The notes under the pieces: generated by a model
The model's input: only the letters and a program-made list of their open reading frames with translations
What the model was told of the DNA's origin: nothing
The model's database searches: none
Position numbers and translations under genes: made by a program
Assembly (NCBI GenBank): GCA_916613615.1
Contig: OU744727.1
Location: forward strand, 2,138,593-2,202,592
Direction: 5' to 3'
DNA length: 64,000 bases
DNA from: Steromphala cineraria
Lineage: Eukaryota; Mollusca; Gastropoda; Trochida; Trochidae
Part shown: one piece after another, positions 8,286 through 36,652 of the stretch
Position numbering within the stretch: the first letter of the stretch is position 1
How the letters are laid out: every line of letters begins with the position of its first letter

Positions 8286-8295
8286 AGCGTTGTAT

Positions 8296-12664: not shown

Positions 12665-12893
12665 CTTCGAGACTGGGGTTGTATCTTGGATTGAGGACTG
12701 TTGGCAGCATGAACTTGAGAGACCCGTCAGTTTCCAGACTCATTTCCGTTACGAAAGAGAACTTGATGCCAGCCTTTGATTTGGGAGGAAGATTACCCAG
12801 CATGCATTTGAAGATATCACCGGAACTGTCGTGTTCCTCCATCAGTACTGCAGATCGTCCACTCCTAACAGCTTCCTCCTATGTCCAACGAGC
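12665..12893 (-). pseudogene. Relic of VWA5A-like exon 3 (inverted copy)
   Basis: It aligns over its full 229 bp with functional exon 3 (23298-23526) at roughly 93% by eye and encodes the same VIT-domain segment (MEEHDSSGDIFKCMLGN...). Three lesions are visible. There is an in-frame TAG near the start (ACATAGGAGGAAGC where the gene has ACATACAATGAAGC). The acceptor AG is one base upstream of the homologous position, which would add a base. The donor is lost (GAAG|ATGCG instead of GAAG|GTGAG). It is the distal part of the VIT domain and cannot be expressed as such. Confidence 0.9.
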
Positions 12894-13240
12894 CCTAAGA
12901 GAGAGAAAGGAATGCTTAATAATGTCATGCTTTTTAAAATGTATAATAAGGGATTTAAGTTTGTGTCATATTTTTCGGATAGACGAAATCACGAAGGTTG
13001 ATTTTGACGCAAATGCCACCTTTCTGTCAATTTATACAAATCGCGATTTCTAAAAACTATTTCGCCAGAGTTACCATCATTCACGGACTATCATATCGAA
13101 ACGTCTGTAAATTTAACCATGGCTTTAATTGGCCACTGCCTTTAGGGAAGCATATTGATGAAAATGAGTTTTAAAAGATTCAAAAATCTTTGACAAGAAT
13201 TACGGAAACAACCTCGTTTACAGTTTTGTAACACTTTTAC

Positions 13241-13408
13241 TTGTTGCTGCTCCTAGACCTCTGCTGTGATGTTTCTTGTCGTCCATGGGGAAGACGTAGA
13301 CGACCTCGATAGTGTCTGTTTCCAAATCGTTTATGTACTGGAGATTCGCCTCCACATTGGCCAGGAAGCCCTGCACGCTGACTCTCACATCCACCCCGTG
13401 CATTGGAA
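13241..13408 (-). pseudogene. Relic of VWA5A-like exon 2 (inverted copy)
   Basis: It corresponds to functional exon 2 (22724-22929, 206 bp) and matches at roughly 93%, but lacks 38 bp after GACGACA (the segment encoding NSAVYKLEANIDG), which shifts the frame. The acceptor (CTCTCTGTCCAG) and a GT donor (CAACAA|GTAAAA) are still present. The intron between this and relic exon 3 does not align by eye with functional intron 2, so the exons look far more conserved than the intron. No relic of exon 1 was found between 13.9 and 16 kb on the minus strand. Confidence 0.9.
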
Positions 13409-13915
13409 CTGGACAGAGAGACTTTGTTATAAAATACGATATTGAATTTGGTATCTATAAACTGACTCTCACATCCACCTCGTGCAGTGGAACTGGGTAG
13501 AGAGAGGTGTTGTTATCTATATACTGACTGTCACATCTACATCGTGCAGTGGAACTGGGTAGAGAGACTTTGTTATAACATGGTATTGAATTAGGTATCT
13601 ATATACTGACTCTCACACCAACCCCGTGCAGAGGAACTGGGCAGAGAGACTTTGTTTTAACATGGTATTGAATTAGGTGTCTATATACCGACTCTCACAT
13701 CCACCCCGTGCAGAGGAACTGGGCAGAGAGACCTGTTGTTATAACATGGTATTGAATTAGGTATCTATAGACTGACTCTCACATCCACCCCGTGCAGTGG
13801 AACTGGGCAGAGAGACTTTGTTATAACATGGTATTGAATTAGGTATCTATATACTGACTCTCACATCCACCCCGTGCAGTGTAACTGGGTAGAGAGACCT
13901 GTTGTTACTACATGG
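13409..13915 (-). repeat. ~82-bp minisatellite derived from exon 2 acceptor (inverted copy)
   Basis: About six units, each holding on the minus strand CTCTCTACCCAG|TTCCACTGCACGGGGT followed by GATGTGAGAGTCAGTATATAG. This is the polypyrimidine tract, the acceptor AG and the first codons of exon 2. It is the same repeat as the one at 22424-22723 in the functional gene, seen here next to the relic exon 2. Confidence 0.93.
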
Positions 13916-16050
13916 TATTAATGTTGTTTTCTTTTTACTACTTTGTTACGAACAGTATTAAAAGGTATTACAAAGGACATAGATGACAAAATTATATGTA
14001 TTTTCATCACTGTGAAATTTACATGGACTTAAACATTGCAAGGCGAGTATAGAAGGTGAGAAACATACACTGAATGTGTCTTTAAATGGATCAAATGCTG
14101 GATTTAAAATTTTCATATGGGCAACGAGAGTCTTAAAGATGTTACTTAAACTGAAGGAAGTCTATGTGCCTTCTTACCGATGTATAGAAACGATGTATAA
14201 GGCATAGTTTCTTTCAATTTGGTATAATCAGTGACAGAGGGAAGGCATAGTTAATTTCCATTTGGTGTTTAATCGGTCACTGAGGGAAGAACTTAATGGT
14301 AGTTTGTTAGGATTTGTTGCCGAAAGGACAGGATCTTGATTAACAGATAGATCAATACAAGTCTGCATGTTTTCATCACCAACAGAAGCTGTATTCATCA
14401 TCTCACTTTCTTATCCTAGGATCATAAATTAGCGTTTACTTCCGGGTTGGCTGAAGGCGAGATATAGTGTATGTAAACACCCTACTTGCTTGGTCTATTC
14501 TGTCCCTGTATGATAAGTCCGTATATAATCGTCATTTTCCTTGCTTGTGATGAAGTATAGACAAGTAAAGCTTGGATCAAAACTCCACCATGAAAGTCTT
14601 TGCCTGCTGAAGTGAGCGAGTGACGTTATGTTTATCTCAGTAAATTGCACCGGAAGATCGATATCTATCAGAGCGTGAAGACACAATGTGACCGAGAGTC
14701 ACATGGACAGGTGTGGTTGATGCTTATTCACACGTCTACATTGACAGGTCAAAGGTTATGATAAGTAAATCAATGCGTTGCTGGGTGTACCAGGATGTAC
14801 CCCTTTTGCTGTGATCACGTTGTATCCGGGTGTCAAGGAGAAGTAGACCCTTTGAAGAAAGACCTTTCGATGGAACACACAAAAGATCGGGAAGCATTAA
14901 ATTTCTATTTAGCAATATAAGTCTCTAAACTGTGACGGATCCAATTTGGTAAAATACATGATTTAATCTATCTTTTTCCCGTATAGAATTGTCTTTCGGC
15001 TAAATCATCCAATCATCAAACCGGAATAGATAGAGGATAAAGCTTGATTACTTTGAATACGTTATAATTTCAATATTTCTACACCTGTTACACTTACATT
15101 GATTATTATAGGCGCAGTAGTACGTTCATAAACAAAATTATCTTCAACTTTGCTCAATCTAAAAACATATTGAAGCACAATATATTTTTTGCTGAAGGTA
15201 ATCAATTAAATCATTACAAGCTTTCATGTACAAGTGAAAATTGCACGTTGCCATTCAAGTGTGTTTACCAATACTATTCAAGTTAAGGAATTGGGAAAGG
15301 TGCAGCTTTGCCGAGCACGTTAAAAATTAATGTGTGAAAACATACTAACGATAAAACGATAAAAAACTTTAAGAAAGGATCTGGTGAATTGGAAAACCCA
15401 AAATATATAGACTCTAAAAATAAATAATCTTGGTATGGTTTGGGACATTAGGAAAATACTCCATTTTATACTTATTTTGCCAAGGAATATATCCATTCAT
15501 GCAAAGAAATATTTCAAAATTACACAAAGTTATTAAAGAATTGAAAGAATTTAAAGAATTGTTTCTGTTGATCATGAAATTACATAGCCACAAGCAATAA
15601 TTGTTATGATTTTTTTTCTGACAAATTAATTCCAAGTATTCAAAATATAAACGTAATGCACATATGGTGACACATTTACTAAACATTGTGTTTACCCATG
15701 TTAATATGCATATTTATCTCTGCTCAATTGCTTGTATTCCTGCCTGTAATTGAAATGGGATCAAATAAAAGAAGATAAACAAAACTAAGCAAAAGTTAAA
15801 TACTTTCTATGCTGACCTGCACATATTGAAAATATGTCACTTCTTACATGTGTCACCATACAACTATGAATAAGTATGTTTAGGAATGCATTTCTATTTT
15901 CTATTGAACAGTTTTCCTTTAATTTTTCCAAACCTTTTCGTAGTGTCCCTGCTGAGTACATAGATAAAGGTCTTGTGAGGATATTCTCTGTGTCAAGGTA
16001 AACAACAGGAAAATCCCTTCATAACCCATATCCTTTTCTGAGCAAGTGTC
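13916..16050. other. Upstream region of the VWA5A-like gene, no gene seen
   Basis: About 2.1 kb of AT-rich sequence between the relic exons and the TATA box. Only short frames occur (14495-14686 and 15414-15686, both -), without recognisable features. It could contain the promoter-proximal elements of the + gene. I searched it for a minus-strand counterpart of exon 1 and saw none. Confidence 0.5.
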
Positions 16051-16225: not shown

Positions 16226-16271
16226 ATGGCGATCAAATATGGACTTATTATACAGGGCCAAAAAAGAACAG
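16226..16271 (+). CDS. VWA5A: VWA5A-like exon 1 (start codon)
   Basis: ACACCATGG gives a strong start context (A at -3, G at +4). It encodes MAIKYGLIIQGQKRT and ends in phase 1 with a consensus donor, CAG|GTAAGT. The leftover G joins TT of exon 2 to give Val, producing KRT-VPLHG, which fits the VWA5A N-terminus (a YGLL-like start followed by PVPL-like residues). The exon is too short to be found by ORF length; phase, the family's N-terminal pattern and the upstream TATA box support it. Confidence 0.82.
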
Positions 16272-22200: not shown

Positions 22201-25200
22201 AAACAACCATGCCGAACTCAACTCACGGCCTCTTTCTACTCCATTCGACTATATACGGGTAGAATATGAGTGTCAGCAGAAAGATGACGAAATCAACTAC
22301 ATGTTATTCGAAGCGCTTTTCTTTCCACTTCACTACACGGGGTTGCTATAAGTTTCGGTATTAAAATCAATATCAATACCATCTCATAACAAGCACAAAT
22401 TCATATTATCATTCGATGCATCTCTCTAGTTCCACTACATATATATATATATAGATTGTATACAGATAATACAAATTCAATACCATGTTATGACAAAATC
22501 TCTACCCAGTTCCATTGCACAGTTACTATATAGATACCAAATTCAATACCATGTTTTAACAAGGTCTCTCTACCCAGTTCCACTGCACGGGGTAGATGTG
22601 AGAGTCAGTATATAGATAACAACACCTCTCTCTACCCAGTTCCACTGCATGAGGTGGATGTGAGAGTCAGTTTATAGATACCAAATTCAATATCGTATTT
22701 TATAACAAAGTTTCTCTGTCCAGTTCCACTGCACGGGGTGAATGTGAGAGTCAGTGTGCAGGGCTTCCTGGCCAATGTGGAGGCGAATCTCCAGTACATG
22801 AACGACTCGGACACAGACACTCTCGAGGTCGTCTACATCTTCCCCATGGACGACAACAGCGCCGTCTACAAACTGGAGGCCAACATCGACGGCAGAAACA
22901 TCACAGCAGAGGTCCAGGAGAAGCAACAGGTCGGAAATCTATCATCTTTTGAGATTTTAACCACTTTGAAAGATTCAAGTTTTGGCCGTTTAACTAATAA
23001 CATGACACAGTGCATCCAAGCATTTGATATTTTTCCATAGAAATTGGACGACATCCCTATAGCTAATTATTTCCAGCAAACAAAGACTGTCATTCAATGA
23101 ACATGAATACTGGTTAGATAATATATTTTTAACCTTTTAGGATGTGTCCTCATATTGTCATTTGAATGGTGTCTGAAAGTTATTATTAGCATAACCATAT
23201 ATATGCATATAATCACAAAAATAGGCTTAATTCAAATCATTTTGAAATGAATTGACACGAGGGTGACATTATGAACCATTCCTTTCTCTCTATGAAGGCT
23301 CGTGAGACATACAATGAAGCTGTTAGAAGTGGACGATCTGCAGTCCTGATGGAGGAACACGACACTTCCGGTGATATCTTCAGATGCATGCTGGGTAATC
23401 TCCCTCCCAAATCAAAGGCTGACATCAAGTTCTCTTTTGTAACGGAAATGAGTCTGGAAACTGACGGGTCTCTCAAGTTTGTGTTGCCAACAGTACTCAA
23501 CCCAAGATATAACCCCAGTCTTGAAGGTGAGTAATCTGTATGTCAGTAGTCCTCAACCCAAGATATAACCCCAGTCTTGAAGGTGCGTAATCTGTATGTC
23601 AGTAGTCCTCAACCCAAGATATAACCCCAGTCTTGAAGGTGCGTAATCTGTATGTCAGTAGTCCTCAACCCAAGATACAACCCCAGTCTTGAAGGTGCGT
23701 TATCTGTATTTCAGTAGTCCTCAACCCGAGATACAATTCCAGTCTTGAAGGTGCGTAATCTGTTTGTCAGTAGTCCTCAACCCAAATACAACCCCAGTAT
23801 TGAAGGTGCGTAATCTGTTTGTCAGTCGTCCTCAACCCAAGATACAACCCCAGTCTTGAAGGTGCGTAAGTCTATATGTCAGCAGTCCTCAATATCAGAT
23901 ACATGTCATGAGTTGAAGAGTTCTTTCTGCCAGGTGTCTATAAACCAGATACAGTCCCAGCCTTGAAGGTACCTCAATATCCGATAAAAGTTTTGAAGAT
24001 ATTTTCAGCATTAGACCCGTAAAGCTGTACAACACAAATTTGAAGGTGTTTGATTTATGCATAAGTACCTTCAACAAATGCTACTTCTAAAATCTTGAGG
24101 TTTTCTCCTTTATTCATCAGGGGTTACGATTACCAATTAGGTGTAGAACGAATAATTTGTGTCATTACATGACGAGTAATCAAGTCACCTCTTCATCTAA
24201 AACTTTCTTGAAATATGAATTTATTCCATTTATGAGTAGACGGTAAACCTATATTAAAGTAAAAATGTTCAACCTACGATCGAGTTGAATGTCGATTTAT
24301 TTTGTTCAGTTGGGTTTGACTAGAATTGCTATTGATTCTATTGGCGACACACAAATTTAATTGATAGAATTTTAAAGAAATTCAGTCACATTTCGTGGTG
24401 ATATTTTGTTCAGATTAAAAGTCTGTTTTCATCACAGATGGGGGATCCAAGGAGGACACCAGTTTCTCTGCCATGAACCAATGTCATTACGACCTGACCT
24501 TCAAGGGTTCCGTGAGCTCTCAGCACGGAATTTCCCGAGTCTGGTCGGACAGTGACGAAGTCAGGACAAATCATGTTGATGCAGCAGGGAATATCTATAT
24601 AATCGAGGTTGTATCCCCTAGCCTGTAGCACTGATATAACAGTTTACTTACTGGTGGTGACGTCACATCTTAAGTTAACATTAATGATGTTGTAGTGGAT
24701 TGATAACGTGAATAAAAATGTTAAACATTTAGGAATTCATTAGTACAGTAAACATACATTTTCTTCCCACGTATAAAGTCAGATAACCAACAATTTTTAC
24801 AACTGAATCCCGCAATATGAGTCATATACGACGAATCCATGACCTTCGGCTATACCAACCATCTGGTGTACCAGGTGTAGATGGATTGAGACTGGTGAAA
24901 TGGGATTTTCATTTTATAACAAGCTGTGCAGATTATATTATTCACAGATACCTCCAAATGGTCTAACAAAAGTTCATTGACCTAATCTTCATTTAAGACA
25001 GAATATTTTAACACCGTTTTTACTTGATCATCCACCCAGCTTGTTGCATAGCAATAGGAGGCGTGCACAGCTCTAAATGGTGGTGCTGCTACTGGGTCAT
25101 TATATTTTTCACACTTTAAAACAATACAAATGCTGCAAAGTAAACTTGACGTTTCCTCGAAGTATCCAGCGTTAAACTATAGAGCAAACTAATAAGTCAA

Positions 25201-28200
25201 ATTTTAGCTCCTTTTTAGAGGCATTTTAGAAGTTGGAATGACAAAAATGCTGAGGAATATATGGATGACAACTTCTTTGTTCATAATATGCGACGTTTCC
25301 CTATTGCTTGAGAACGACACAAGAATATGTGTCGAAACGTCGCATACAATGAACATATGTTCCACAGCTTTATTGAAGTTTAGCTCTTAGATGCTTATGC
25401 ACTGTTACGTATATAACGGTGTGATACAGATTTTGATAGCAAAACAAAATTGCAATTTGAATTATTGATATACTATTGACCATGTATTGATAAAACCTAA
25501 TTTGATTTGTTTCATAGAACTGTAAATGTGTTGACTTGTGTACGTACATGCATATCTATAATTTGTCTCAGAACTGATGAATATTTTTTACAGTTCCAAC
25601 TGGATGGTCCCCCCAGACTCGATCATGATATCTCCTTAAATGTTCTGTATGAGAATTGTCATAAACCACAGACAACACTGGAAAAGGGCGATCAAGGTGA
25701 AACACTGTCTTTATCAAATATACTATCTATTATCAATTCATATATGTTCAACAAAGCAAATCCAAGGACAAGGACGGAGGTTTTATAGCTTCTAATGTTT
25801 ACAACAGTTTTTGACCAGAAGCATTATTCCATTTTATAAAATTATGAAAACAACACATCGACACTACAATTGTGTCAGGAAATTTGTCCCATCAACACTG
25901 GCGCTGAGGGAAACGGATCAATCATTACTCAAAATCTAGTTAAGAATAAGATAGACACTCAGGGACAAAAGAAACGATGCCATTTAAAATGTTTGATAAA
26001 GTTATCATTGATATTTGCGGCTGAAATATGGTAATATCACTAGTTAAAGAGCCAACTTACTTTTGTACTTCTAAGCTATATATGAAAGGTTGTATAAAAG
26101 TCTCCGGAGAAGGGCAATCAAGGTCAACTATCAACTATGTTCTTAAATTGACTATCGATTGGTGATGTGACCATACCTTTTTATAGGCCAAATAAAACTA
26201 GATTGATCGATGACCAAAGATCCCCATACACAAGATGTTGACAAAAAAAATAAGTTTGACAATGATTGTTTCGTCGCCGTTTTTTAACAAAGATATATAT
26301 TCTAGTGCAATATGGATTACTGAATAGATTCTGGCATCAAGAAGTTTATTTCAAGTAAAGATAAATGTCCTTGATATTTTTGTCATAACATTTGTCTTTA
26401 ATTATTTGCTGGTTATTAAACTTGTTCTAAAGGAGAAACACGACTAAAGAATTGAATAGCAACGATTGGCAATTAGCTTGTAGTGTATTAGAGTAAATAA
26501 GGGATTTAAAATGATTTCACAGACAAAGAGGGTCTGATGAGAAAGGATCTGCTGATGTTGTCCTTCTATCCTGATCTAAGTTCCTCAACAACTTCCGGTT
26601 CAGCAGAGTTCATCTTCATCATCGACAGATCAGGTGAAAATACCACTTTTTATCAATATGTGTGTTCGTGATAGAACAGACAGATGGAATAACATCGATT
26701 GTCCTTAATTCTGAGAAAATACATATGATTTGTATTTTCGTTTTGAACCACAGTGCATTGTGATATGTCCTGAGTTTCTAGACCATGTTTTTTGTATGTG
26801 CATTCCATATTTATTTCCACTAAAACGAGAGTTGCAAGGGCGACAACTTGCCTGATAAACATAAAAACTGCATACCGCAAATATATTAAAAATAGTTCAC
26901 TCTCGAACAATATGTAATAATAAGAGGTAAGAATGATTCATTTCGACTGCAAACCATAGAATACTAGTATATACTAGTTTTAGTAACTGTTGTGAAGAAA
27001 TTAATATTAAAACGGTAAACAGATCCATTTTCTATGCTTAAATGATTTTACGGTGTTCCCTCTAAAATTACTTGATACTCGAAGACAACTGGTAATCCGC
27101 TTGGAACATGTGATGTTTGACCCTATGAAGGTATACATTTGTCATAAACTTATATTTTGGGGACGAATTGAAGAAATTACATTTTAAAAAGTGTTATTTA
27201 ACCTTCAAGTACTTTTGTTTTCTATTCTACAATTTTTCATACCAACAGTGTAAAACGAACAGTTTGCCTTGTGTGTAGTAAATAAAATGTGAAAATGACA
27301 TTTTATTCGGATAAACGTCACTTTTTAATTGAATTCCAATAATATTCATGTGTTCTGCAGGCAGTATGGATGGAGAGTCCATTCAAAGTGCAAAGGAGGC
27401 GATGCTTTTCTTCCTGAAGAGTTTACCGGTTGACTGTTTCTTCAACATCATAAGCTTTGGCAGCTCATACAAAGCTTTGTTTCCTGGGTACGCATATTTA
27501 CCATATATAAACTTTCAAAAGGGTACTTTTTAACAAAACAGTACAAATCGGTACTGCGATGATGATTCCTAACCACGCATCAGTGAATTGAATTTTGATA
27601 CATCACATATTTGGTAGATCACCGTTTTAATGTTTATAGGAAATAAACGATTTACAAGATGATCATTCAGCATAAATGATACATGTATTAAAATGACATG
27701 ATATGTTTTTCAATTTTCAAAGTAAGAAGGTTCTAAACCACAATGTGACCGAAAGATGACAAACTCGGTCTACAAAGATCTCCAAATAATATCCATAAAA
27801 TCTTCGTCACTGATGTATTCCAACACCAACCAGATGAATGTTATAATGTAACAATGCAACCCCATATGTTCACAAACGTGTCTAAATAATTATTAGCGGG
27901 AGCATGCAATACAAGGAAGGGACACTGAAACAAGCAATGAACCTCCAAGAACATCTGAGAGCAGACATGGGAGGGACGGAGATCCTGAGACCTCTCGAGT
28001 TCGTGTACAGGAAGAAAGCTCAGGCTGGATATCCCAGACAGGTACTGGTGAAAGAAACGTCTACTTTTCGATGTCTTTGCATTATTACGTTTTCACTTTG
28101 CCTTGAAAGGGCATGATGCACAATCCCTTTTTTTCTGTTCAAAACGAAAGGTACATGTAACATTTAAACATGATCAGGTCTAGAATATTATTTCAACTTA

Positions 28201-31200
28201 TGCATCATTAGAAACAATTAAATAAGAATAAACTTCGATATGCGTTGAGAATTTCTTTGATTTTACTTCTGTAATTTCACACTGTAAAATTAGAAGTTTT
28301 ATAACAATAATCCTCTGTTATTTCAATGCTCATGTAATTGAATAAGTGTTTTCATGCATACTGCATTAGTGGACAGTTTTTCAATTTTTATGTTTTTATC
28401 ACTGAATGTGGTGAAATCCTCAACATTTTGAAATGTGATTTTAACTAACAAATTACACTTCTGGCACTATTAAAAGATCTTCCTTCTGACTGACGGGGGT
28501 GTGTCTAATGCTGGAGAAGTGGTTTCCTTGGTGAAAAGAAACTCTTATGACAGCAGGTGAAATGCATTTGTTTTTTATGTGGTATTTACATAATTGATTC
28601 AACGTTTTAAGTAAGTGGCCAACTCAACGGAACATCTGGTTTTAGCTGAGATAAAAGGTGATAGGACATACGTGGCATTGATTGGTGAGATTTTTTTAGG
28701 CATAAGATAATGAATATTATAATTGTTTCTCATAACTTGTACCAGAGACTCAATGTTCTCCATCCAATTTATTGAGTCAGAAAAAAGAAACAACATGTAT
28801 GTTGATCTATGTATTGACAGAACAGCTTTAAATATATACATAACATAACATAACATAACGTAACGTAACGTAACGTAACGTAACGTAACGTAACGTAACG
28901 TAACGTAACGTAACTTAACGTAACGTAACGTAACGTAACGTAACGTAACGTAACGTAACGTAACGTAACGTAACGTAACGTAACGTAACGTAACGTAACG
29001 TAACGTAACGTAACGTAACGTAACGTAACATAACATAACATAACATAACATAACATAACATAACATAACATAACATAACATAACATAACATAACATAACA
29101 ATATTTTCCAATCTTCATTTTCTTTACAGAGTGTTCACAGTTGGTATCGGAGCCGGAGTCTCCACGACCCTCGTCAGGAATGTTGCTAAAGCTGGAGGAG
29201 GAGAAGCTGAATTCGTCACAGATAGTCTCAATCTGCAGCAGAAGGTGATGGAGGGTCAAACATATGCATAGTTCAAACACTAGTATTAGATTGACTATCT
29301 TATATGAAATAATTACCTTAAGCACTGACAGTTTTAATCTGCAGTAGAAGGTAATGCAGGGTCGAAAATAACTCAAATGCTAGTATTAGATCGACTTTCT
29401 TGTATATGATATTAACACCTTAAGACAGTCTCATATGTAGCAAAAGTTGGTGCTGAGTCTAAATACCTCAAGTACTCGAATTGGATCTACTATCTTAATT
29501 TAAATTAACTTGAATTAAAATCAACAACTCTGTTGACCTTTACGGAGATAGAAGATTTAATGTTTTCCTCTATATCGCTTTTATTTGAAGTTTTGATCTT
29601 TTGGTTTAGAATAACAACAAGTATTTAATCCCCAGGTGATGAAACTTCTGAAAGCTGCCTGTCAGCCGGCTGCAACTGATATAGCACTTGACCTTGACCT
29701 TCCTTCCGGACTCACAGTGGATCTGATGCTGCCCAAGGATATGCCGGTCATCTTCAGTGGACGGAGGGCCTCCATATTCGTCTTCTTGAGTGGACAGGTA
29801 AATGATTTCCCTTTAAGTACATCCGGCCTGTAAGGCAAAGGATTTAAATGCTTTGAAAATCAAAATCATTATAACTGTTGACTGTTAACATTTATCTCCT
29901 AACGAAGAAGGGGCTAGACATATCTTATCGTATTGAGAACAAATTCTTTATCAATCAATAATTAATAAAGAATAAGATGATTTGGTGGCTAATACTGTAG
30001 GGCTACTTTCCTAAACAACCACGATACTTTACATTGTAGAAATGAATGTTCTTTTCAGAATTATCAACAACTCTTTCGAGCGGAAAACCTTCAATGTTTT
30101 TTAATTACTTGTTACATTGAGCTTAAAATGTTATAAATTAAATATTATTAAGTACCTTGATACTTGCATCATTTACATAAATAAAAAATGTCAAAGGGTC
30201 ACTTTTATTTCTAAGGCGGCCACATCCGAGGGCAAAGCTCATCTGTCTGGAAAGATTTCCGGGACAAGCTTCAAGCACTCGATGGAGTTTGACTTGCAAA
30301 CAGACGCCCAGGTCAACTCTGGTCAGTTCATCCACAGGATGGCCATGAAGGGCTTGATCAAAGACCTCGAAATGGACGAAATAGGTAGGTACCTATGGTG
30401 TGGTTGATGGATTTTATAACACTTAGTTCAGCATGGAAGTATTTCATACAGTCCGAAGCCATATTCATAAGAACACTATAGCATATGTCACTCAAAGGTT
30501 TTGGTTTACTAGATAGCCTACTGTTATTTGTGTAGGAAATTAAAAACACTAAAGTTGTAAATACGTTTGGATTATAATGAGTATGTTATGCGGTTTCAGA
30601 TTCCAAAGGCGAGAAGAAAAGGGAGATAATCCTAGCGAGCACTGCCAGTAACCTCATCTCCAAGTACACATCATTTGTTGGCGTCGACAAGGAGAGGAAC
30701 GAGAAGATCACGGAAGCTGTCACCTATCATGTTACACCACCGTCTAGGTTCCACGCATATGCACTGTATGTTAGTTTGTTACTTCTCTAGTGTTCAATAG
30801 GGATACAGATGCAAATTTCAAAGGTCAAGGTCGGAACTTTTTTCAAAAATTCCGATGACGTCACAAGCGTTAACATTTTGAACGCATTTAGCAACGGAGA
30901 GAGTCATTACAATATTGATTATACACTGCATAAACATTAATCTAAGAAATAACAACAAAACTGTGTGGGTCTTAAGCCATACGTATGACTTGTCAGTGCT
31001 AAAACAGTAAAACACTGTCATCATGATTTGAATGAAACCGACCGAACAATTTTACTCACAGGTACCAAAGGCAGTAACTGTTCAAGTCTCATGTTCAAAC
31101 ACGTCATTTACCCATCTTCGGTGTTTCTTTAATATTGTTAAGTTTGGATTCGGAAATCCACAGAATATCATCTAGTTTAGCTCTCCGGCCATGTTCGTTC

Positions 31201-34200
31201 AATTGCTGTCTCAACACTGCCATGTTGTAACATAGGCGAAGGGAAGCAACTCTTGCCCCTTGGTGAGATTGACTCGTCCTCTCGAGGTCCTCCTCTCGAT
31301 GACGTCGGATTAAAGAACGTCAGTTCGATCCCGTCAAAGACCATTTAAAATGTTTCTAATTTTTAAAATCATCGTATTTTATAGATTTTTAAATTTCAAA
31401 ACTTTGGAGTCGTGACAAAATAACTCAAACGGCAATAAAAGGCATATATAAGGAGGAATTATATTTTGTCAATTCACCGTCAGAGTCATTGCTCAGTTCA
31501 TTTGCATATATCAATGCGCGAATCTTAAAACAATTTCAACTATTAAAATAGTATTATCAAGCATTTTTTCGAATTAAATTTTTAAATGACATTGTATGAT
31601 GAAGAAGTTATGCTCGTGTGTTTTGCGATCGTAAATATCCTGCATTAGGAATTAACACTATGTATTTAGCTCGCCAAGGCTCGCAAAATTCAATGTTAAT
31701 TCCTAATGCAGGATATTTACGATCCCAAAACACACTCGCATGATAACCTCTATATAACAACTTAAATTGCTACCCCTAACACGCATTTATTTAACAGTGG
31801 TGCGTTGCCAACATTCTGTGGAGCACTGCCGCCGCCACCACCGAGGAAAATTAGAGCACCACCAGCACCACTACAATATCTACGATCATCTTCAGGACCA
31901 CCAGCACCACCACCATCACGGAGTTGTGGTGCACCACCACCGCCACCGCCATCATCATCTCCAGATATTTTTGAAAACTGGGCTGATTTTTGTGCAGAAG
32001 ACGAAGACGACTTTGAAGAAATTTACGACTTGTGTTGCACTCAACGACGTCCATTACCTCCAGCCCGCCCAATAGTACAGTCAAAGGGAAATCAAATGTT
32101 TTCATCTCAGGGTAAGATTGGACCTTTATCTGAATTAGGAATATTCCTAATGTGAATTGAAATTGAAATTGAAAAAAAAATCATAAGATCATGCAAAATA
32201 GCATCTCATCTTTATACATGTGTCGAGGATACAAGTTGATGTTCTCCTTGTAGCGGGAGAGATGGTGATGCTACAAGATATTTTTGAAAATAGCTTGGCT
32301 GATTTTTGTGCAGGAGACGAAGACGACTGCGAAGAAATTTACGACTTGTGTTACACTGTGGACGACGCAACTGCACCGCCGCCTCCACGACGTCCATTAC
32401 CTCCAGCCCGCCCAATAGTACAGTCAAAGGGAAATCAAATGTTTTCATCTCAGGGTAAGATTGGACCTTTATCTGAATAAGGAATATTCCTAATGTTAAT
32501 TGAAATTGAAATTGAAAAATAAATCATAAGATCATGCAAAATAGCATCTCATCTTTATACATGTGTCGAGGATTCAAGTTAATTTTCTTCTTGCATGTCC
32601 CCAGCGGGAGAGATGGTGATGCTACAAGCCTTTGATGGATCCTGGGAGTTGGATGGTCAACTTTCAAAACTCATCAATGTGACAACAGACAATCTGTTAA
32701 AGGCGACCGGAATCAAGGTATTATTTTAGTCCCATTTTAGTGTTTTGAAAGCATAAAGAGATTTTTTTGTAATGAGTATATAGATAATCTCACCTAAGTG
32801 TCTTCTGATTTCAAAAATAAAAACTTAAGCTGATCAAAGTAACACAGTCTTTAAGGAGGTTGGATACAAAATATTGAGGTATTAAGAAATAGCTAAATTT
32901 GGTCTTATTTTGTTTAAAAATATGTCTTGAATCCAATTGTGTCATAAAAATACCATGTCACCACAGTTTTTGTTCGAAAAAGGGCCCATCCGATAGGGCA
33001 CCCAATGATGAAAATACAATAATTTAAAAACTCCTTTTCAAGATAACTTTTGAATATAATTGTTATTTAAATGTTTTTCTATTAAGGCATTGCAGTATGG
33101 AAATAAACAAAGTCAGAAAAAAAGGAACTTGAAAATAATATGAAGTAAATTCATACAAATAACCTTTTTTTTGTATGATTATTTTTGTAAAATATTATTC
33201 TTTTATGAAAAAAAATCGATTTCTCGTATTAAGATTTTTTTGAAAATTATATATTTTATAGTTAATACACACTAGAATAAGATTAAAAAGAAAAAACAAT
33301 ATGTCACCAGGGGATAACAGAGATATTCACATTCAATTTAGCCACATCAATGAAAATTAACATCCAGGGGAGATAACTCTTCATTGTCAACATTACCATT
33401 TTTTAGAAATTTTCATTAGTACTTACAGTTAATTAGTGAAATAAATTTTATCATAAAACAAATACTTATGTTCACAAATATAACATAGTCATTGTTTTTT
33501 ATTAAACTAAATCATTATTTTATTTTTTTATCTCACACTTTCAGTGAAAAATAAACAAAACAGCATAAACTTTGAAATAGCACAATCTGACTGTTGCGGA
33601 TGTGCAGTAACAAAGGTATCCAACCTCCTTAATTCAAAACGAATGTTGATATAATTTATATTAGGAAACACGAGGGTGAGATTTTATTATTGTCCAAAAT
33701 CATTTTTATTACTTTCCGTGAAAAATCTCTGACCTCTGAGCTGCCTTATAACTTCAAAACGGTAATAATGTTTACCGTTATAGCATTGTGAGGTCGCTAT
33801 GTTTATGATGACATACGATGTCATTATTTGAGTATGCAAAACGTTTGTGCCATTGCATGGTATCATTCAAAATATATTGATTGATACACGATTTTTTCTA
33901 TTTTTTTCAATTTTGATGATAAAAAATACAAATAATTACAATTCCTTTAAGTAAGCCATGTAAACACTAAATGGAGTTTTAGTAAGTTTTCCTTGTTGTC
34001 TTTGGTTGGTTGAATGCACTTGATATGTAAATACTATAATTTGTACATCCTAGTTCTCTTTATGTAAGACTGTATGTATCTCACATAGGACAAGAATGTG
34101 CTGGCTACTGTGCTGCTGTGTGCTGTACATTCTAGTTCTCTTTATGTAACACTGTATGTATCTCATACAGGACAACAAGGTGCTGGCTACTTGTGCTGCT

Positions 34201-36458
34201 GTGTGCTGTACATCCTAGTTCTCTTAATGTAAGACTGTATGTATCTCATACAGGACAACAAGGTGCTGGCTACTTGTGCTGCTGTGTGCTGTACATCCTA
34301 GTTCTCTTAATGTAAGACTGTATGTATCTCACACAGGACAACAAGGTGCTGGCTACTTGTGCTGCTGTGTGCTGTACATCCTAGTTCTCTTAATGTAAGA
34401 CTGTATGTATCTCACATAGGACAAGAATGTGCTGGCTACTGTGCTGCTGTGTGCTGTACATCCTAGTTCTCTTTATGTAACACTGTATGTATCTCATACA
34501 GGACAACAAGGTGCTGGCTACTTGTGCTGCTGTGTGCTGTACATCCTAGTTCTCTTAATGTAAGACTGTATGTATCTCACACAGGACTAGAAGGTGCTGG
34601 CTATCTGTGCTGCTGTGTGCTGTACATCCTATTTCTCTTTATGTAACACTGTATGTATCTCACACAGGACAAGAAGGTGCTGGCTACCTAGTTCTCTTTA
34701 TGTAAGACCGATGTATCTCACACAGGACAACAAGATGCTGGCTACTTGTGCTGCTGTGTGCTGTACATCCTAGTTCTCTTTATGTAAGACTGTATGTATC
34801 TCACACAGAACAAGAAGGTGCTGGCTACCTGTGCTGCTGTGTGCTGTCCATCCTAGTTCTCTTTATGTAACACTGTATGTATCTCACACAGGACAAGGAG
34901 GTGCTGGCTACCTGTGCTGTTGTGTGCTGTACTTCCTAGTTCTCTGTTTGTAACACTGTATGTATCTCACACAAGACAATAAGGTGCTGGCTACCTGTGC
35001 TGCTGTGTTTGTAGATCCTAGTTCTCTTTATGTAACACTGTATGTATCTCACACAGGACAAGAAGGTGCTGGCTATCTGTGCTGTTGTGTGCTGTATATC
35101 CGAGTTCTTTTTATGTAAGACTGTATGTATCTCACACAGGACAAGAAGGTGCTGGCTACCTGTGCTGCTGTGTGCTGTACATCCTAGTTCTCTTTATGTA
35201 ACACTGTATGTATCTCACACAGGACAAGAAGGTGCTGACTACCTGTGCTGCTGTGTGCTGTACATCCTAGTTCTCTTTATGTAAGACTGTATGTATCTCA
35301 CACAGGACAAGAAGGTGCTGGCTACCTGTGCTGCTGTGTGCTGTACATCCTAGTTCTCTTTTTTTAAGACTGTAAGTATCTCACACAGGACAAGAAGGCG
35401 CTGGCTACTTGTGCTGCTGTGTGCTGTACATCCTAGTTCTCTTTCTGTAAGACTGTATGTATGTCACACAGAACAAGAAGGTGCTGGCTACCTGTGCTGA
35501 TGTGTGCTGTACACCCTAGTTCTCTTTCTGTAAGACTGTGTGTATGTCACACAGAACAAGAAGGTGCTGGCTACCTGTGCTGCTGTGTGCTGTACATCCT
35601 AGTTCTCTTTATGTAAGACTATATGTATCTCACACAGGACAAGAAGGCGCTGGCTACTTGTGCTGCTGTGTGCTGTACATCCTAGTTCTCTTTATGTAAG
35701 ACTATATGTATCTCACACAGGACAAGAAGGTGCTGGCTACTTGTGCTGCTGTGTGCTGTACATCTTAGTTCTCTTTATGTAACACTGTATGTATCTCACA
35801 CAGGACAAGAAGGTGCTGGCTATCTGTGCTGCTGTGTGCTGTATATCCCAGTTCTCTTTCTGTAAGACTGTATGTATCTCACACAGGACAAGAAGGTGCT
35901 GGCTACCTGTGCTGCTGTGTGCTGTACATCCTATTTCTCTTTATGTAACACTGTATGTATCTCACACAGGACAAGAAGGTGCTGGCTACCTAGTTCTCTT
36001 TATGTAAGACCGATGTATCTCACACAGGACAACAAGATGCTGGCTACTTGTGCTGCTGTGTGCTGTACATCCTAGTTCTCTTTATGTAAGACTGTATGTA
36101 TCTCGCACAGGACAAGAAGGTGCTGGCCACCTGTGCTGCTGTGTTTGTATATCCTAGTTCTCTTTTTGTAAGACTGTATGTATCTCACACAAGACAAGAA
36201 GGTGCTGGCTACCTGTGCTGCTGTGTGCTGTACATCCTAGTTCTCTTTATGTAAGACTGTATGTATCTCACACAGGACAAGAAGGTGCTGGCTACCTGTG
36301 CTGCTGTTTGCTGGCTCACCGTGAAGTGTTCAGAGGAGCGATCAGTCTGGGAGATGGTGGTCGACAAGGCTAAGCAATGGTTGCTAAGGACGCTAGGAGA
36401 CCAGATGAAGGTGGACAAACTGATGGAGGAGGTCCGGGAGGCTTTCTTCAAGAACTGA
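16226..36458 (+). CDS. VWA5A: VWA5A-like protein, whole gene (17 exons, 879 aa)
   Basis: The assembled coding sequence uses exons 16226-16271, 22724-22929, 23298-23526, 24438-24607, 25594-25696, 26523-26633, 27361-27487, 27897-28041, 28477-28556, 29130-29244, 29636-29797, 30216-30384, 30600-30765, 31798-32111, 32254-32454, 32605-32717 and 36276-36458. The total is 2640 nt, every junction keeps phase, and all introns are GT-AG. Predicted domains: VIT (about residues 10-155); VWA (about 278-450) with an intact metal site, DRSGS at 286-290, Thr358 (GGTEI) and Asp385 (TDGG); a proline-rich and acidic linker (about 612-780); and a C-terminal domain (about 784-879) with the GSWELDGQL motif also seen in VWA5A and PARP4 tails. 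There is no signal peptide or membrane segment, so it is probably intracellular. The molecular role of VWA5A in other animals is poorly known (a candidate tumour suppressor in human). The order VIT-VWA-tail and the motifs make the family call firm; whether it is 5A or a sister 5B-like paralogue is less sure. Confidence 0.93.
16272..17639. other. Intron 1, 5' part; nothing recognised
   Basis: AT-rich, with AGGGAAATAACTCTG at about 16520, a motif type common in molluscan repeats. A frame at 16867-17091 (+, 74 aa) and one at 17383-17613 (-, 76 aa) have no family match. The latter lies just beyond the truncated end of the Gypsy element and could be unrelated sequence. Confidence 0.4.
17640..19410 (-). 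mobile_element. Ty3/Gypsy-like retrotransposon, pol part (decayed, antisense in intron 1)
   Basis: Read on the minus strand, the order is aspartic protease (DTG at about 19089-19097, in MADTGYQ), reverse transcriptase (18774 down to about 18100, with TAPQGY and a CVDDTLLWA catalytic box near 18254-18290) and an RNase H-like segment (18115-17645). The frame shifts at about 18100, and in-frame stops lie between protease and RT. Nothing of an integrase or LTR is visible; similarity ends near 17640, so the 3' part is missing. Together with 20952-21837 it is one element, split by the LINE at 19411-20951. It sits antisense to the host gene and cannot be autonomous. Confidence 0.85.
19411..20951 (+). 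mobile_element. 5'-truncated LINE (non-LTR retrotransposon) nested in the Gypsy element
   Basis: It is flanked by a perfect 7-bp target duplication, TCGAAGT (19404-19410 and 20952-20958), which interrupts the Gypsy gag reading. The coding begins mid-RT (GTRQGCVLSPQLFIIFINQ near 19500). The catalytic box reads FADN instead of FADD (Asp to Asn near 19637-19648), and a frameshift near 20040-20060 splits the ORF into 19299-20099 and 20012-20833. The C-terminal part keeps a CVYC...H...C zinc-like motif followed by LICQKY (20580-20680), typical of many LINE ORF2 ends. The 3' end is a (TCTG)n run (about 20923-20950). It is inactive. The clade was not assigned. Confidence 0.88.
20952..21837 (-). mobile_element. 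Ty3/Gypsy-like retrotransposon, gag part
   Basis: Minus-strand gag is carried in three frames (21837-21568, 21578-21300, 21298-20952), joined by frameshifts near 21570 and 21300. The last holds a zinc knuckle (CSYCGKKGHG..., with further CSSC) just before the LINE insertion point; the reading resumes as DTVCQNKGK at about 19410. No PBS or LTR was identified in 21838-22423. It is a decayed intronic passenger. Confidence 0.82.
21838..22423. other. Intron 1, 3' part; possible element flank
   Basis: About 590 bp with no coding. It could include the missing 5' LTR or leader of the Gypsy element, since gag begins at its left edge, but I see no direct terminal repeat partner in the window. Confidence 0.35.
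22424..22723 (+). repeat. Exon-2-acceptor minisatellite (functional gene)
   Basis: Four to five units of 65-83 bp lead up to exon 2. Each carries CTCTCTACCCAG|TTCCACTGCACGGGGT and GTGAGAGTCAGTATATAG, a copy of the real acceptor plus the first ~30 nt of exon 2. Splicing into a decoy gives VPLHGVDVRVSI followed by TAG, so only the last acceptor (22722-22723) opens into the gene. Confidence 0.93.
22724..22929 (+). CDS. VWA5A: VWA5A-like exon 2 (VIT domain, first half)
   Basis: The acceptor is CTGTCCAG at 22722-22723 and the donor CAG|GTCGGA. Residues 16-84 include VPLHGVNVRVSVQGF and VYIFPMDDNSAVYKLEA, the VIT core pattern (FxFPMD...AVY.FEA). It ends in phase 0. It has an inverted relic at 13241-13408. 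Confidence 0.93.
23298..23526 (+). CDS. VWA5A: VWA5A-like exon 3 (VIT domain, second half)
   Basis: Acceptor AG at 23296-23297; donor GAAG|GTGAGT. Residues 85-160 begin ARETYNEAVRSGRSAVLMEE and end VLPTVLNPRYNPSLE, the conserved VIT end. Phase 1 at the end. The last 32 nt plus donor are the seed of the 56-bp minisatellite that follows. Confidence 0.93.
23527..23980 (+). repeat. 56-bp exon-3-end/donor minisatellite (functional gene)
   Basis: About seven units of 56 bp follow the exon directly, each repeating CCCCAGTCTTGAAG|GTGCGTAATC; the last ones decay toward 23980. Successive donors lie at 23527, 23583 and 23639. If a downstream donor were used, the reading would stop at once, because GGTGAGTAA places TAA two codons after Glu. 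It is the same repeat as 8296-12664 on the other strand. Confidence 0.95.
24438..24607 (+). CDS. VWA5A: VWA5A-like exon 4
   Basis: Acceptor TTTTCATCACAG at 24436-24437; donor GAG|GTTGTA. Residues 161-217 include HYDLTFKGSVSSQHGISRV, matching the inter-domain segment after VIT in VWA5A proteins (a ...SQHGI.. motif). G from exon 3 plus AT gives Asp at the junction; the end is phase 0. The donor is a weak match to consensus. Confidence 0.88.
25215..25390. repeat. Palindromic dispersed element in intron 4
   Basis: GTTCATAATATGCGACGTTTC and its near-complement bracket a CGACACA-AGAATA-TGTGTCG stem followed by AAACGTCGCATA. It shares GGATGACAACTTCTTTGTTC and the CAACTTCTAAAATGCC-type edge (reverse complement at 25215) with the palindrome at 53187-53302. 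Confidence 0.6.
25594..25696 (+). CDS. VWA5A: VWA5A-like exon 5
   Basis: Acceptor TTTTTTACAG at 25592-25593; donor CAAG|GTGAAA. Residues 218-251 include FQLDGPPRLDHDISLNVLYE, the strand-rich stretch that precedes the VWA domain in this family. Phase 0 in, phase 1 out. Confidence 0.87.
26523..26633 (+). CDS. VWA5A: VWA5A-like exon 6 (start of VWA domain)
   Basis: Acceptor at 26521-26522; donor TCAG|GTGAAA. Residues 252-288 include LMLSFYPDL and AEFIFIIDRSG. The Asp and Ser (286, 288) are the first half of the DxSxS metal-ion-dependent adhesion site, completed by exon 7. Phase 1 both sides. Confidence 0.93.
27361..27487 (+). CDS. VWA5A: VWA5A-like exon 7 (VWA domain)
   Basis: Acceptor TTCTGCAG at 27359-27360; donor CTGG|GTACGC. 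Completes the metal site (GSMDGESIQSAKEAM; Ser290) and encodes FFLKSLPVDCFFNIISFGSS, a strong VWA5A-type stretch. Ends in phase 2. Confidence 0.93.
27897..28041 (+). CDS. VWA5A: VWA5A-like exon 8 (VWA domain)
   Basis: Acceptor TTATTAG at 27895-27896; donor ACAG|GTACTG. Encodes LRADMGGTEILRPLEFVY; Thr358 in GGTEI is the expected second-loop metal ligand. Phase 2 in, phase 0 out. The polypyrimidine tract is weak (ATAATTATTAG). Confidence 0.9.
28477..28556 (+). CDS. VWA5A: VWA5A-like exon 9 (VWA domain)
   Basis: Acceptor TATTAAAAG at 28475-28476; donor GCAG|GTGAAA. Encodes IFLLTDGGVSNAGEVVSLVK; Asp385 in TDGG is the third metal-site loop. The exon is only 80 nt and the acceptor is poor, but its phase (0 in, 2 out) and the motif fit. 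Confidence 0.88.
28838..29100. repeat. (AACGT)n/(AACAT)n pentanucleotide array
   Basis: About 52 units. A core of roughly 35 TAACG units (one TAACT interruption near 28914) is flanked on the left by about 4 and on the right by about 14 TAACA units. It ends about 30 bp before the exon 10 acceptor and directly abuts its polypyrimidine tract. The switch CG to CA is what methyl-CpG decay would give. Long minus-strand frames here are repeat translations. Confidence 0.97.
29130..29244 (+). CDS. VWA5A: VWA5A-like exon 10 (VWA domain end)
   Basis: Acceptor TTTCTTTACAG at 29128-29129; donor GAAG|GTGATG. Encodes RVFTVGIGAGVSTTLVRNVA and AEFVTDSLNLQQK, matching the FGIGEG...LI..IA..SGG..EFI pattern of VWA5A. 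Phase 2 in, 0 out. Confidence 0.92.
29222..29480 (+). repeat. ~104-bp decayed tandem repeat from exon 10 end
   Basis: Three units start at about 29222 (the real exon end, GATAGTCTCAATCTGCAGCA then GAAG|GT), 29325 (GACAGTTTTAATCTGCAGTA then GAAG|GT) and 29427 (more degraded). Each is followed by an AGTATTAGATYGACT-type spacer. The second unit keeps a donor-like GAAG|GTAATG. This is another array seeded on an exon-intron junction. Confidence 0.85.
29636..29797 (+). CDS. VWA5A: VWA5A-like exon 11
   Basis: Acceptor TCCCCAG at 29634-29635; donor ACAG|GTAAAT. Residues 445-498 include VMKLLKAACQPAATDIALDL and MPVIFSGRRASIFVFLSGQ, the post-VWA beta-sandwich region of the family. 162 nt, phase 0-0. 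Confidence 0.92.
30216..30384 (+). CDS. VWA5A: VWA5A-like exon 12
   Basis: Acceptor TTTCTAAG at 30214-30215; donor ATAG|GTAGGT. Residues 499-554 include AHLSGKISGTSFKHSMEFDL and HRMAMKGLIKDLEMDE, matching the G.v.L.y.l.g..f...v.F and IHRLAAKSLL-type positions of VWA5A. Phase 0 in, 1 out. Confidence 0.91.
30600..30765 (+). CDS. VWA5A: VWA5A-like exon 13
   Basis: Acceptor GTTTCAG at 30598-30599; donor CACT|GTATGT. Residues 555-609 include ILASTASNLISKYTSFVGVD, the family's 'SGVISSFTAFIAIN' position, then KERNEKITEAVTYHV. Phase 1 in, 2 out. Confidence 0.92.
30805..31755. repeat. ~0.95-kb dispersed repeat in intron 13 (second copy at 63.0-63.96 kb)
   Basis: It aligns with 63020-63955 from TTTCAAAGGTCAAGGTCGGA to GATAACCTCTATATA in the same orientation, with many substitutions (about 85% by eye). 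It contains AATTCCGATGACGTCACAAG (a CRE-like palindrome) and GAAGGGAAGCAACTCTTGCC, and near its right end a foldback unit (31612-31745). No coding capacity or LTR was seen. The class is unknown. Confidence 0.85.
31612..31745. mobile_element. Foldback unit inside the dispersed repeat
   Basis: Arms of about 50 bp in inverted orientation, built on GATCGTAAATATCCTGCATT, around a loop holding GCTCGCCAAGGCTCGC. The homologue at 63811-63943 has the same structure. Either the foldback inserted first and was copied with the larger repeat, or it is an integral end structure. Confidence 0.75.
31798..32111 (+). CDS. VWA5A: VWA5A-like exon 14 (proline-rich and acidic linker)
   Basis: Acceptor TTAACAG at 31796-31797; donor CAGG|GTAAGA. 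Residues 610-714 begin LGALPTFCGALPPPPPRK, followed by several poly-Pro runs (up to six Pro). After these come DIFENWADFCAEDEDDFEEI and RPLPPARPIVQSKGNQMF. The low-complexity linker joins the VWA part to the C-terminal domain and could bind SH3, WW or EVH1-type domains (inference). Phase 2 in, 1 out. Confidence 0.88.
31964..32627 (+). repeat. Tandem duplication creating chimeric exon 15
   Basis: The segment from GATATTTTTGAAAA in exon 14 (31964) through the intron to GAGATGGTGATGCTACAA recurs starting at 32277. The offset is 313 bp on the exon-14 side and 351 bp between the exon-15 and exon-16 starts (32254, 32605). The two intron copies (after 32111 and 32454) are nearly identical, including GTAAGATTGGACCTTTATCT. 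The duplication is therefore young. Confidence 0.93.
32254..32454 (+). CDS. VWA5A: VWA5A-like exon 15 (chimeric duplicate)
   Basis: The first ~23 nt copy the start of exon 16 (AGEMVMLQ) and the rest copies the second half of exon 14 (DIFENSLADFCAGDEDDCEE ... RPIVQSKGNQMFSSQ), with an extra DDATAPPPPRR stretch. Acceptor TTGTAG at 32252-32253; donor CAGG|GTAAGA. It is 201 nt (67 codons) with phase 1 on both sides, so it can be included or skipped without breaking the frame. Whether it is used in mRNA is unknown. Confidence 0.75.
32605..32717 (+). CDS. VWA5A: VWA5A-like exon 16 (C-terminal domain)
   Basis: Acceptor TGTCCCCAG at 32603-32604; donor CAAG|GTATTA. Residues 782-819 read AGEMVMLQAFDGSWELDGQL then SKLINVTTDNLLKATGIK. 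The LQ..DGSW.L...L..LI pattern is typical of VWA5A tails and also of the PARP4 tail. Phase 1 in, 0 out. Confidence 0.93.
32851..33632. mobile_element. TTAA-flanked MITE (piggyBac-like ends) in intron 16
   Basis: TTAAGGAGGTTGGATAC at 32851-32867 is mirrored by GTATCCAACCTCCTTAA at 33616-33632. The reading is a 13-bp terminal inverted repeat (GGAGGTTGGATAC) with TTAA target duplications, about 780 bp in all. The interior is very AT-rich and has no ORF. TTAA duplication suggests mobilisation by a piggyBac-type transposase; the TIR sequence itself was not matched to a named family. Confidence 0.75.
33633..34051. other. Intron 16 middle; nothing recognised
   Basis: About 420 bp of AT-rich sequence between the MITE and the 83-bp array. 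Confidence 0.5.
34052..36275 (+). repeat. 83-bp minisatellite (~27 units) derived from last-exon acceptor
   Basis: The unit reads TCTCTTTATGTAAGACTGTA TGTATCTCACACAG|GACAAGAAGG TGCTGGCTACCTGTGCTGCT GTGTGCTGTACATCCTAG. This is a polypyrimidine-containing stretch, acceptor AG and the first codons of exon 17 (DKKVLATCAAVC), then a TAG. Variant units with a deletion (CTGGCTACCTAGTTCTC) occur at about 34681 and 35983, indicating a ~1.3 kb higher-order duplication. Each unit also has a donor-like TTAT|GTAAGA. The true acceptor is the last of the series (36274-36275). Confidence 0.95.
36276..36458 (+). CDS. VWA5A: VWA5A-like exon 17 (C-terminus, stop)
   Basis: Residues 820-879: DKKVLATCAAVCWLTVKC, then RSVWEMVVDKAKQWLLRTLG and the end EEVREAFFKN, TGA. 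It matches the helical tail of VWA5A (W.....AL.WL......W..v..KA..WL). The first 30 nt are the seed of the preceding array; the real exon diverges from decoys at CTGCTGTTTGCTGGCTCACC. Confidence 0.93.
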   Translation, partial: DKKVLATCAAVCWLTVKCSEERSVWEMVVDKAKQWLLRTLGDQMKVDKLMEEVREAFFKN

Positions 36459-36652
36459 AGACGAACTGAAAGTGATCCGCAGATATAGTTTACCCAAGGA
36501 GGCGTTCTTCAAGAACTGAAGACGACCTGAAAGTGATCCGCAGATATAGTTTACCCAAGGAGGCGTTCTTGAAGAACTGAATTTGTACTGAAAGTGGTCT
36601 GTAGGGATAGTTTACCCAAGTAGGCTTTCTTCAAGAACTGAAGGAAGTAGGG
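36435..36652 (+). repeat. Stop-codon-region tandem repeat at 3' end
   Basis: GGAGGCTTTCTTCAAGAACT (EAFFKN and stop) recurs at about 36500, 36560 and 36625, separated by AAAGTGATCCGCAGATATAG and TTTACCCAAG spacers. There are about four units of 60-70 bp, ending where segmental copy B begins. No AATAAA was seen before 37434, so the polyadenylation site is undefined. Confidence 0.9.

Follow-up and report, generated by a model that had tools for sequence, protein, structure and literature searches.

A minisatellite of human IFI6 was reportedly described by Turri in 1995 as producing multiple splice donor sites. Amphioxus repeats that span exon edges are termed mirages, with Canestro 2002 (NAR 30:2871) as a cited reference. 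According to PMC3087553 and PMC3902484, mirages occur in Adh3, the globins BflGb6 and BflGb9, PGBD5, troponin C and other genes, in variable number and beside an intact edge, and have been proposed as an origin of new introns; the repeats measure 10-160 bp and lie over the 5' or 3' exon edge, many with AG/GT (PMC3087553). Internal tandem repeats at exon-intron boundaries are also described by De Grassi and Ciccarelli 2009 (PMC2812944) for human genes in segmental duplications, where they are transcript-supported and have units averaging 30 bp, repeated 4 times. In IFI6, two downstream minisatellite repeat units serve as donors (PMC4526556).

Here, repeats of this known but seldom noticed kind are described in a VWA5A-like gene of the gastropod Steromphala cineraria, within a window of 64,000 nucleotides (the whole stretch of DNA that was analysed). 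Like amphioxus mirages, the snail's tandem units span exon edges on either side, mostly keep AG/GT and lie beside the real edge. Unlike them, they have a gastropod host, five are found in one gene, they reach about 90-110 copies and they have spread by segmental duplication. As in the human genes of PMC2812944, these are boundary minisatellites in recently multiplied genes, variable among paralogues and with the potential to change gene structure, although the snail units are 56-100 bp long. The donor arrays resemble the IFI6 minisatellite in repeating a splice donor; donor use is reported for IFI6, whereas the snail copies are known from DNA alone. A sequence-only reading of the window had held that no standard description of such a pattern exists, which is incorrect given the amphioxus and human accounts. 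A search of open-licence papers found no mollusc case of edge-spanning minisatellites.

Gene model and edge arrays

The VWA5A-like gene consists of 17 exons separated by 16 GT-AG introns with matching phases, and its 880 codons form one frame with a single terminal stop (Table 1). The product possesses Pfam domains VIT (7.3e-31) and VWA_3 (4e-25). Exon 1 was located via an exon 1 relic adjoining the inverted pseudogene, and its phase fits exon 2. In most of seven relatives compared (six Haliotis or Mytilus, one Owenia), the coding edges can be aligned. The predicted exon boundaries are supported by splice signals, phases, frame, domains and this alignment. Retroelement-like frames were also noted by eye in intron 1.

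Table 1. Features of the VWA5A-like gene and the inverted pseudogene in the window (TRF, tandem-repeat finder rows)
Feature	Position	Strand	Details
Inverted pseudogene relic, exons 2-3	8289..13919	-	same two arrays as window gene; exon 3 interrupted by a stop codon, exon 2 with a deletion
Exon 3 donor array of inverted pseudogene	8289-12699	-	78 copies
Exon 2 acceptor array of inverted pseudogene	13378-13919	-	6 recognisable copies
Exon 1, VWA5A-like gene	16226..16271	+	MAIKYGLIIQGQKRT + first base of next codon; donor GTAAGT
Exons 2-17, VWA5A-like gene (VIT + VWA domains)	22724..36458	+	stop TGA 36456-36458
Exon 2 acceptor array	22424..22755	+	spacings 62-84 bp; 4 recognisable copies incl. 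real edge; TRF 22565-22684, 62 bp
Exon 3 donor array	23484..23970	+	56-bp unit; 7 recognisable copies; TRF 23492-23892, 56 bp
Exon 10 donor array	29217..29496	+	spacing ~100-106 bp; 2-3 degenerate copies in window gene; self-comparison 29217-29496, 71% identity
Tandem duplication running from within exon 14 into exon 15	31963..32628	+	shift 313 bp
Extra intron from exon 14-15 duplication	32112-32253	+	predicted
Exon 14b, extra in-frame exon	32254-32454	+	67 codons; predicted from open frame and splice signals
Exon 17 acceptor array	34040..36313	+	83-bp unit; 28 copies; TRF 34042-36313, 83 bp, split over several rows
Stop-codon array	36437..36643	+	61-bp unit; 3.4-4 copies extending into 3' untranslated region; no splice site; TRF 36437-36643, 61 bp

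Five arrays that had been reported at the edges of exons 2, 3, 10 and 17 and at the stop codon were all recovered at those places by TRF or by self-comparison, the latter for the degenerate exon 10 array, which lies below the reach of TRF at score 50. The units combine exon and intron sequence over the predicted acceptors of exons 2 and 17 and donors of exons 3 and 10. The real end of exon 3 is the first copy of its array and the real start of exon 17 is the last copy; the edge copies hold 32 (exon 2), 35-43 (exon 3), 28 (exon 10) and 38 (exon 17) coding nt. Across the five arrays the coding share is about 22-43 nt per unit, so that a coding part is present as had been claimed, although somewhat larger than the 10-30 nt given for it. 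The proposed seeding of the arrays from real exon edges is supported: their coding part is conserved VWA5A sequence also present in other molluscs, of which the surplus copies are diverging duplicates. Misplaced boundaries, with the repeats being common intronic satellites or sequences brought close to exons by transposons, would find some support in the frames of intron 1 and in the sequence-based exon model, but are extremely unlikely given the exact phases and one open frame across 17 exons and the alignment of the units' coding parts to Haliotis and Mytilus proteins.

Spread among gene copies

At least eight copies of the VWA5A-like gene were identified on chromosome 7, where the cluster was sampled as 200 kb in 20 stretches and as eight 3.3-kb loci. 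The five window arrays recur in gene copies and pseudogenes, with 1 to about 90-110 repeat copies, and were therefore counted as roughly five events that took place in a single ancestral gene. For most arrays, a separate origin in every gene copy is rejected, as the same units occur across the cluster and in inverted pseudogenes. Over the scanned loci, and including the edge copy, the number of copies ranges from 4 to 37 (exon 2 acceptor), 1 to 78 (exon 3 donor), 1 to 91 (exon 10 donor), 19 to 68 (exon 17 acceptor) and 2 to 4 (stop). The exon 10 donor array has 91 recognisable copies in gene copy A4, where it occupies 10.9 kb, and 80 in A5. Array length differs strongly among gene copies in this comparison of paralogues from one assembly; the VWA5A-like gene is a multi-copy gene in segmental duplication whose repeat number at an exon-intron boundary differs among paralogues.

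Between gene copies the real edges are closer than the arrays, with distances of 0.019 versus 0.122 for exon 17, 0.035 versus 0.092 for exon 10, 0.066 versus 0.172 for exon 3 and 0.097 versus 0.164 for exon 2. In the four arrays measured, the within-array mean distance is barely under the between-array mean, showing weak homogenisation.

Most surplus copies in the four splice-edge arrays keep the splice dinucleotide intact (122/127, 153/175, 172/174 and 207/216), at a conservation above that of the mean column (0.980 vs 0.919, 0.937 vs 0.911, 0.994 vs 0.935 and 0.979 vs 0.929). This would fit retention of the arrays for function, as a splice-site reserve or a length-variable intron element that adjusts how a multi-copy gene is spliced or expressed. 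However, 12-30% of adjacent column pairs are conserved equally or better (rough combined P 0.17), one and the same edge carries 1 to 78 copies, gene copy A2, in which exons 2-4 are present, carries only one exon 3 copy, and the longest scanned exon 3 array belongs to a pseudogene. Selection may act on the surplus splice sites, the excess of their dinucleotides over the mean column being non-significant; retention of the arrays for function is very unlikely.

Among six gene copies compared for the duplication across exons 14 and 15, both marker sequences are doubled in the window copy alone. Exon 14b is likely a recent new exon, born by the edge-crossing duplication between exons 14 and 15.

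Frequency of duplications at exon edges

Under random placement within the gene, finding 5/5 arrays at edges has a P of 1.1e-5 (whole gene) to 6.8e-5 (exon 2 to stop). The gene was chosen after the pattern had been noticed; assuming that 5,000-20,000 genes were inspected, the chance of one such gene is 5-74%. Of nine distinct short-unit local duplications in the gene family, six cross an edge, against 1.33-1.91 expected. These counts exclude the TAACG microsatellite at 28841-29099 and other units under 10 bp, as well as the wholly exonic repeats of exon 14 (24 and 90 bp), because the chance model omits exonic positions.

As a control, eight stretches from two families (myosin and CCT genes; 71.8 kb) were picked irrespective of repeats. 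Local duplications are dense there, 21 being identified, of which 14 hold no exon edge. The short-unit count, omitting six with a shift over 180 bp, gave four of 15 crossing exon edges versus 2.03 expected (P 0.115). Edge duplications occur in three of the eight stretches, and two of these duplications lie on either side of one intron of a single myosin gene. Such duplications are 1.23-1.34 times easier to detect (simple model, assumed settings), which accounts for only part of the lean. A fifth candidate, the edge at 121 of L029, was dropped, as the exon begins at 244; the near misses L034 3449-4970 and 5781-5977, L035 6963-7197 and L031 3427-3662 have units lacking exon sequence, and the edge-listed spans L029 5112-5935 and L036 7911-9163 (shifts 711 and 571 bp) consist of repeat pieces lacking an edge. 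With four of 15 crossing edges, edge repeats are therefore not rare in this snail, and the control is insufficient to establish a special edge-copying process.

The expectation that ordinary minisatellites would not meet splice junctions so often fits the low P within the gene, but that gene was a post hoc choice. The proposed DNA-copying process at exon edges found a lean in its direction and was not established. An active genomic process preferring exon edges for duplication, such as transcription- or splicing-coupled breakage or R-loops, would account for the arrays of the window gene, for a separate, sixth case at the exon 8 donor (seen in one copy, A2) and for the control stretches with edge duplications, including the pair around one myosin intron. 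It is quite unlikely in view of the control count, the absence of an edge from most control duplications, the stop-codon array, which has no splice site, and the coding-strand GC skew of nine units, which is of mixed sign (-0.35 to +0.32). This mixed sign does not fit R-loop seeding as a shared cause, one of those that had been offered as examples.

Origin and significance of the arrays

The arrays are probably edge-spanning minisatellites (mirages) that arose by ordinary tandem duplication, were tolerated by splicing, and then underwent unequal exchange and gene multiplication. Segments of about 50-180 bp straddling an exon edge by chance would have been duplicated through slippage or end joining that used a few shared bases (three joins were viewed by eye). 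Such a duplication would be tolerated, since splicing could still take place at the copy adjoining the exon body and would yield a normal mRNA, as the unbroken frame and the conservation of the real edges suggest. The surplus copies, whose differences in number are observed, would then have expanded, contracted and drifted by unequal exchange, and the entire gene with its arrays is seen to have multiplied on chromosome 7. An edge-crossing duplication may also yield a new exon, as exon 14b appears to illustrate at the DNA level.

Ordinary tandem duplication is supported by the closeness of real edges relative to arrays, the variable copy numbers, the dense control duplications and the amphioxus mirages. 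Against it, five of five at edges is hard to obtain by random placement and both the family and control sets lean to edges; the weak within-array homogenisation and the non-significant excess of intact surplus dinucleotides also count against it.

Within the literature searched, edge-spanning minisatellites were previously known from lancelets and some human genes, and are now described in a gastropod. The five in the snail family, together with four in three of eight control stretches, point to a possibly wide occurrence where genomes abound in tandem duplications. New exons and introns could plausibly originate from such minisatellites, exon 14b being a likely recent example. A genome-wide bias of tandem duplication to exon edges, with transcription, splicing or exon-linked chromatin setting the birthplaces of minisatellites, is unlikely; if true, a mutational process common to amphioxus and top shells would steadily feed in duplicate splice sites, new exons and new introns.

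Arrays at exon edges of the VWA5A-like gene

The VWA5A-like gene of the window is encoded by 17 exons in a single open frame of 880 codons (stop included) with exact phases. Its product possesses VIT and VWA_3 domains (Pfam, 7.3e-31 and 4e-25, respectively), and among the relatives listed for it the five best are VWA5A-like proteins of Haliotis. Retroelement-like frames (pol-like, non-LTR reverse-transcriptase-like and zinc-knuckle gag-like) were recognised by eye on both strands of intron 1.

TRF and self-comparison located all five of the minisatellites that the sequence-only reading had placed on coding boundaries of this gene; the exon 10 array is degenerate and was missed by TRF. The intact edge is the array copy nearest the remainder of the exon, while the surplus copies are intronic or, for the stop array, lie in the 3' untranslated region. 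Within the array units, coding sequence (exon 2 start, exon 3 end, exon 10 end and exon 17 start) falls in stretches that are alignable in most of seven relatives (of which P0001 is without the N terminus and P0007 without most of the C terminus), showing that the exon edges are older and that the arrays are copies of them.

Recognisable copies and mean distances of the arrays (ranges across scanned loci include the edge copy)
Array	Copies, window gene	Copy range	Loci	Distance within/between arrays
Exon 2 acceptor	4	4-37	9 (one a pseudogene)	0.156/0.164
Exon 3 donor	7	1-78	9 (one a pseudogene)	0.142/0.172
Exon 10 donor	2-3	1-91	7	0.063/0.092
Exon 17 acceptor	28	19-68	6 (one cut by stretch end)	0.109/0.122
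Stop codon	4	2-4	6	

Gene copies on chromosome 7

The reading covered 20 stretches (200 kb) of C7:1.68-2.13 Mb. Together with the window, these contain eight gene copies with exons 2 and 3, on both strands (copy C being read partially), as well as the end of a ninth copy and inverted exon 2-3 pseudogenes. Array copy number varies from one gene copy to another: the exon 3 donor is single in A2, and the exon 10 array has 91 recognisable copies in A4 and 80 in A5, occupying approximately 9-11 kb of intron. The arrays were probably mostly inherited, with the gene copies representing non-independent events.

The 5' exons of A4 group with the window copy and its 3' exons with A5, as if gene copies had recombined. 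A 72-bp array in the window recurs next to several inverted pseudogenes of the cluster; its minus strand carries an open 24-residue repeat.

Coordinates of features (plain numbers refer to the window)
Feature	Coordinates	Details
72-bp array	6138-7874	
VWA5A-like gene	16226-36458	
Retroelement-like frames	17645-21843	intron 1
Exon 14-15 duplication	31963-32628	exon 14 interior to exon 15 interior
Gene copy A4	G000:C7:1765200-1789100	
Whole exon 13 duplication, A4	G000:C7:1783884-1784833	
Whole exon 13 duplication, A5	G000:C7:1827376-1828342	
Exon 8 donor duplication, A2		two matches, shift ~140-178 bp
Control L029, donor	L029 8482-8728	131 bp
Control L029, next acceptor	L029 8964-9320	101 bp
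Control L032, donor		78 bp
Control L034, donor		87 bp
Myosin-head exon cluster	G000:C2:78028951-78836376	both strands

Frequency of edge-crossing duplications

Self-comparison of seven gene copies, with hits grouped by position by the analyst, gave 13 distinct local duplications. An exon edge is crossed by eight of them, namely the five arrays, the exon 14-15 duplication, the exon 8 donor of A2 and the whole of exon 13 in A4 and A5; the other five, of which three are in A1 and one each in A2 and B, stay clear of edges. Chance was modelled by placing each unit length randomly over the gene, leaving out positions wholly within an exon. The resulting P values are post hoc, as the pattern is the reason that the gene was reported: 1.1e-5 (whole gene) or 6.8e-5 (exon 2 to stop) for five of five window-gene arrays on edges, 0.0017-0.018 for 8/13 duplications of all sizes (2.95-4.20 expected) and 0.0005-0.0034 for 6/9 with units <=180 bp (1.33-1.91 expected).

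Eight control stretches (71.8 kb) were chosen through myosin-head (PF00063) and CCT (PF00118) exon matches and fetched before repeats were looked at. They comprise four myosin stretches and the four shortest of nine multi-exon CCT-type loci, and are partly non-independent (L030 and L031 are related myosins). HMM matches and homologues identified 61 exons; some were probably missed, so the expected edge-crossing count may be too low. Of 21 local duplications, 15 have a shift <=180 bp. An exon edge lies in 7/21 of the spans against 5.08 expected, a count made before one L029 exon edge was corrected. Four of the 15 cross an exon edge, each read base by base, vs 2.03 expected (P 0.115). The sequence-only reading had suggested that a process copying DNA at exon edges may act; such a process is a possibility with no support other than a slight lean in small counts. 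In a simple model that assumes values for divergence and exon share, edge duplications are 1.23-1.34-fold easier to detect. Edge-spanning duplications are thus not rare in Steromphala cineraria, and their excess over chance is non-significant.

Two of the control duplications flank a single intron of the myosin gene in L029. Elsewhere, myosin-head exons are densely clustered on G000:C2, suggesting that myosin heavy chain genes are present there in many tandem copies.

Origin and change of the arrays

An array most likely begins with tandem duplication of a segment across an exon edge. The copy next to the exon body would still be usable, presumably for splicing, so that the change would be tolerated. 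Surplus copies then drift and change in number, probably through unequal exchange. Real edges stay alike between gene copies while surplus copies diverge, and any concerted evolution inside the arrays is weak, mean distances within arrays being only slightly below those between them. How the duplications form we infer from the few bases that, by eye, are shared where copies meet in those at exon 3, exon 17 and exon 14-15. Splice dinucleotides are intact in 122/127, 153/175, 172/174 and 207/216 surplus copies of four arrays; they exceed the mean column in 4/4 arrays, yet 12-30% of adjacent column pairs are equal or better (rough combined P 0.17), so selection may or may not act on them.

Relation to known repeats and a possible exon gain

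Tandem repeats spanning exon edges are known from amphioxus genes, Adh3 and globin genes among them, where they are named mirages (PMC3087553, PMC3902484). There, RT-PCR suggested undisturbed splicing and the authors called the origin unclear. Minisatellites at exon-intron boundaries differ among paralogues of human segmental-duplication genes (PMC2812944), and human IFI6 carries a minisatellite with several splice donors (Turri 1995, as cited in PMC4526556). No mollusc case was found in the open-licence literature searched, from which absence does not follow.

The markers of the exon 14-15 duplication are both doubled in the window gene alone among six gene copies compared; each occurs once in A3, A4, A5 and B, and one is absent in A2. 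At the DNA level the product is an extra in-frame exon (201 nt, 67 codons) and an extra intron, a possible recent exon gain. Outcomes of this sort were proposed for amphioxus mirages (PMC3087553). The pattern first noticed in this gene, for which no standard description had been known to the sequence-only reading, is confirmed and belongs to a known kind of repeat, that of the amphioxus and human reports.
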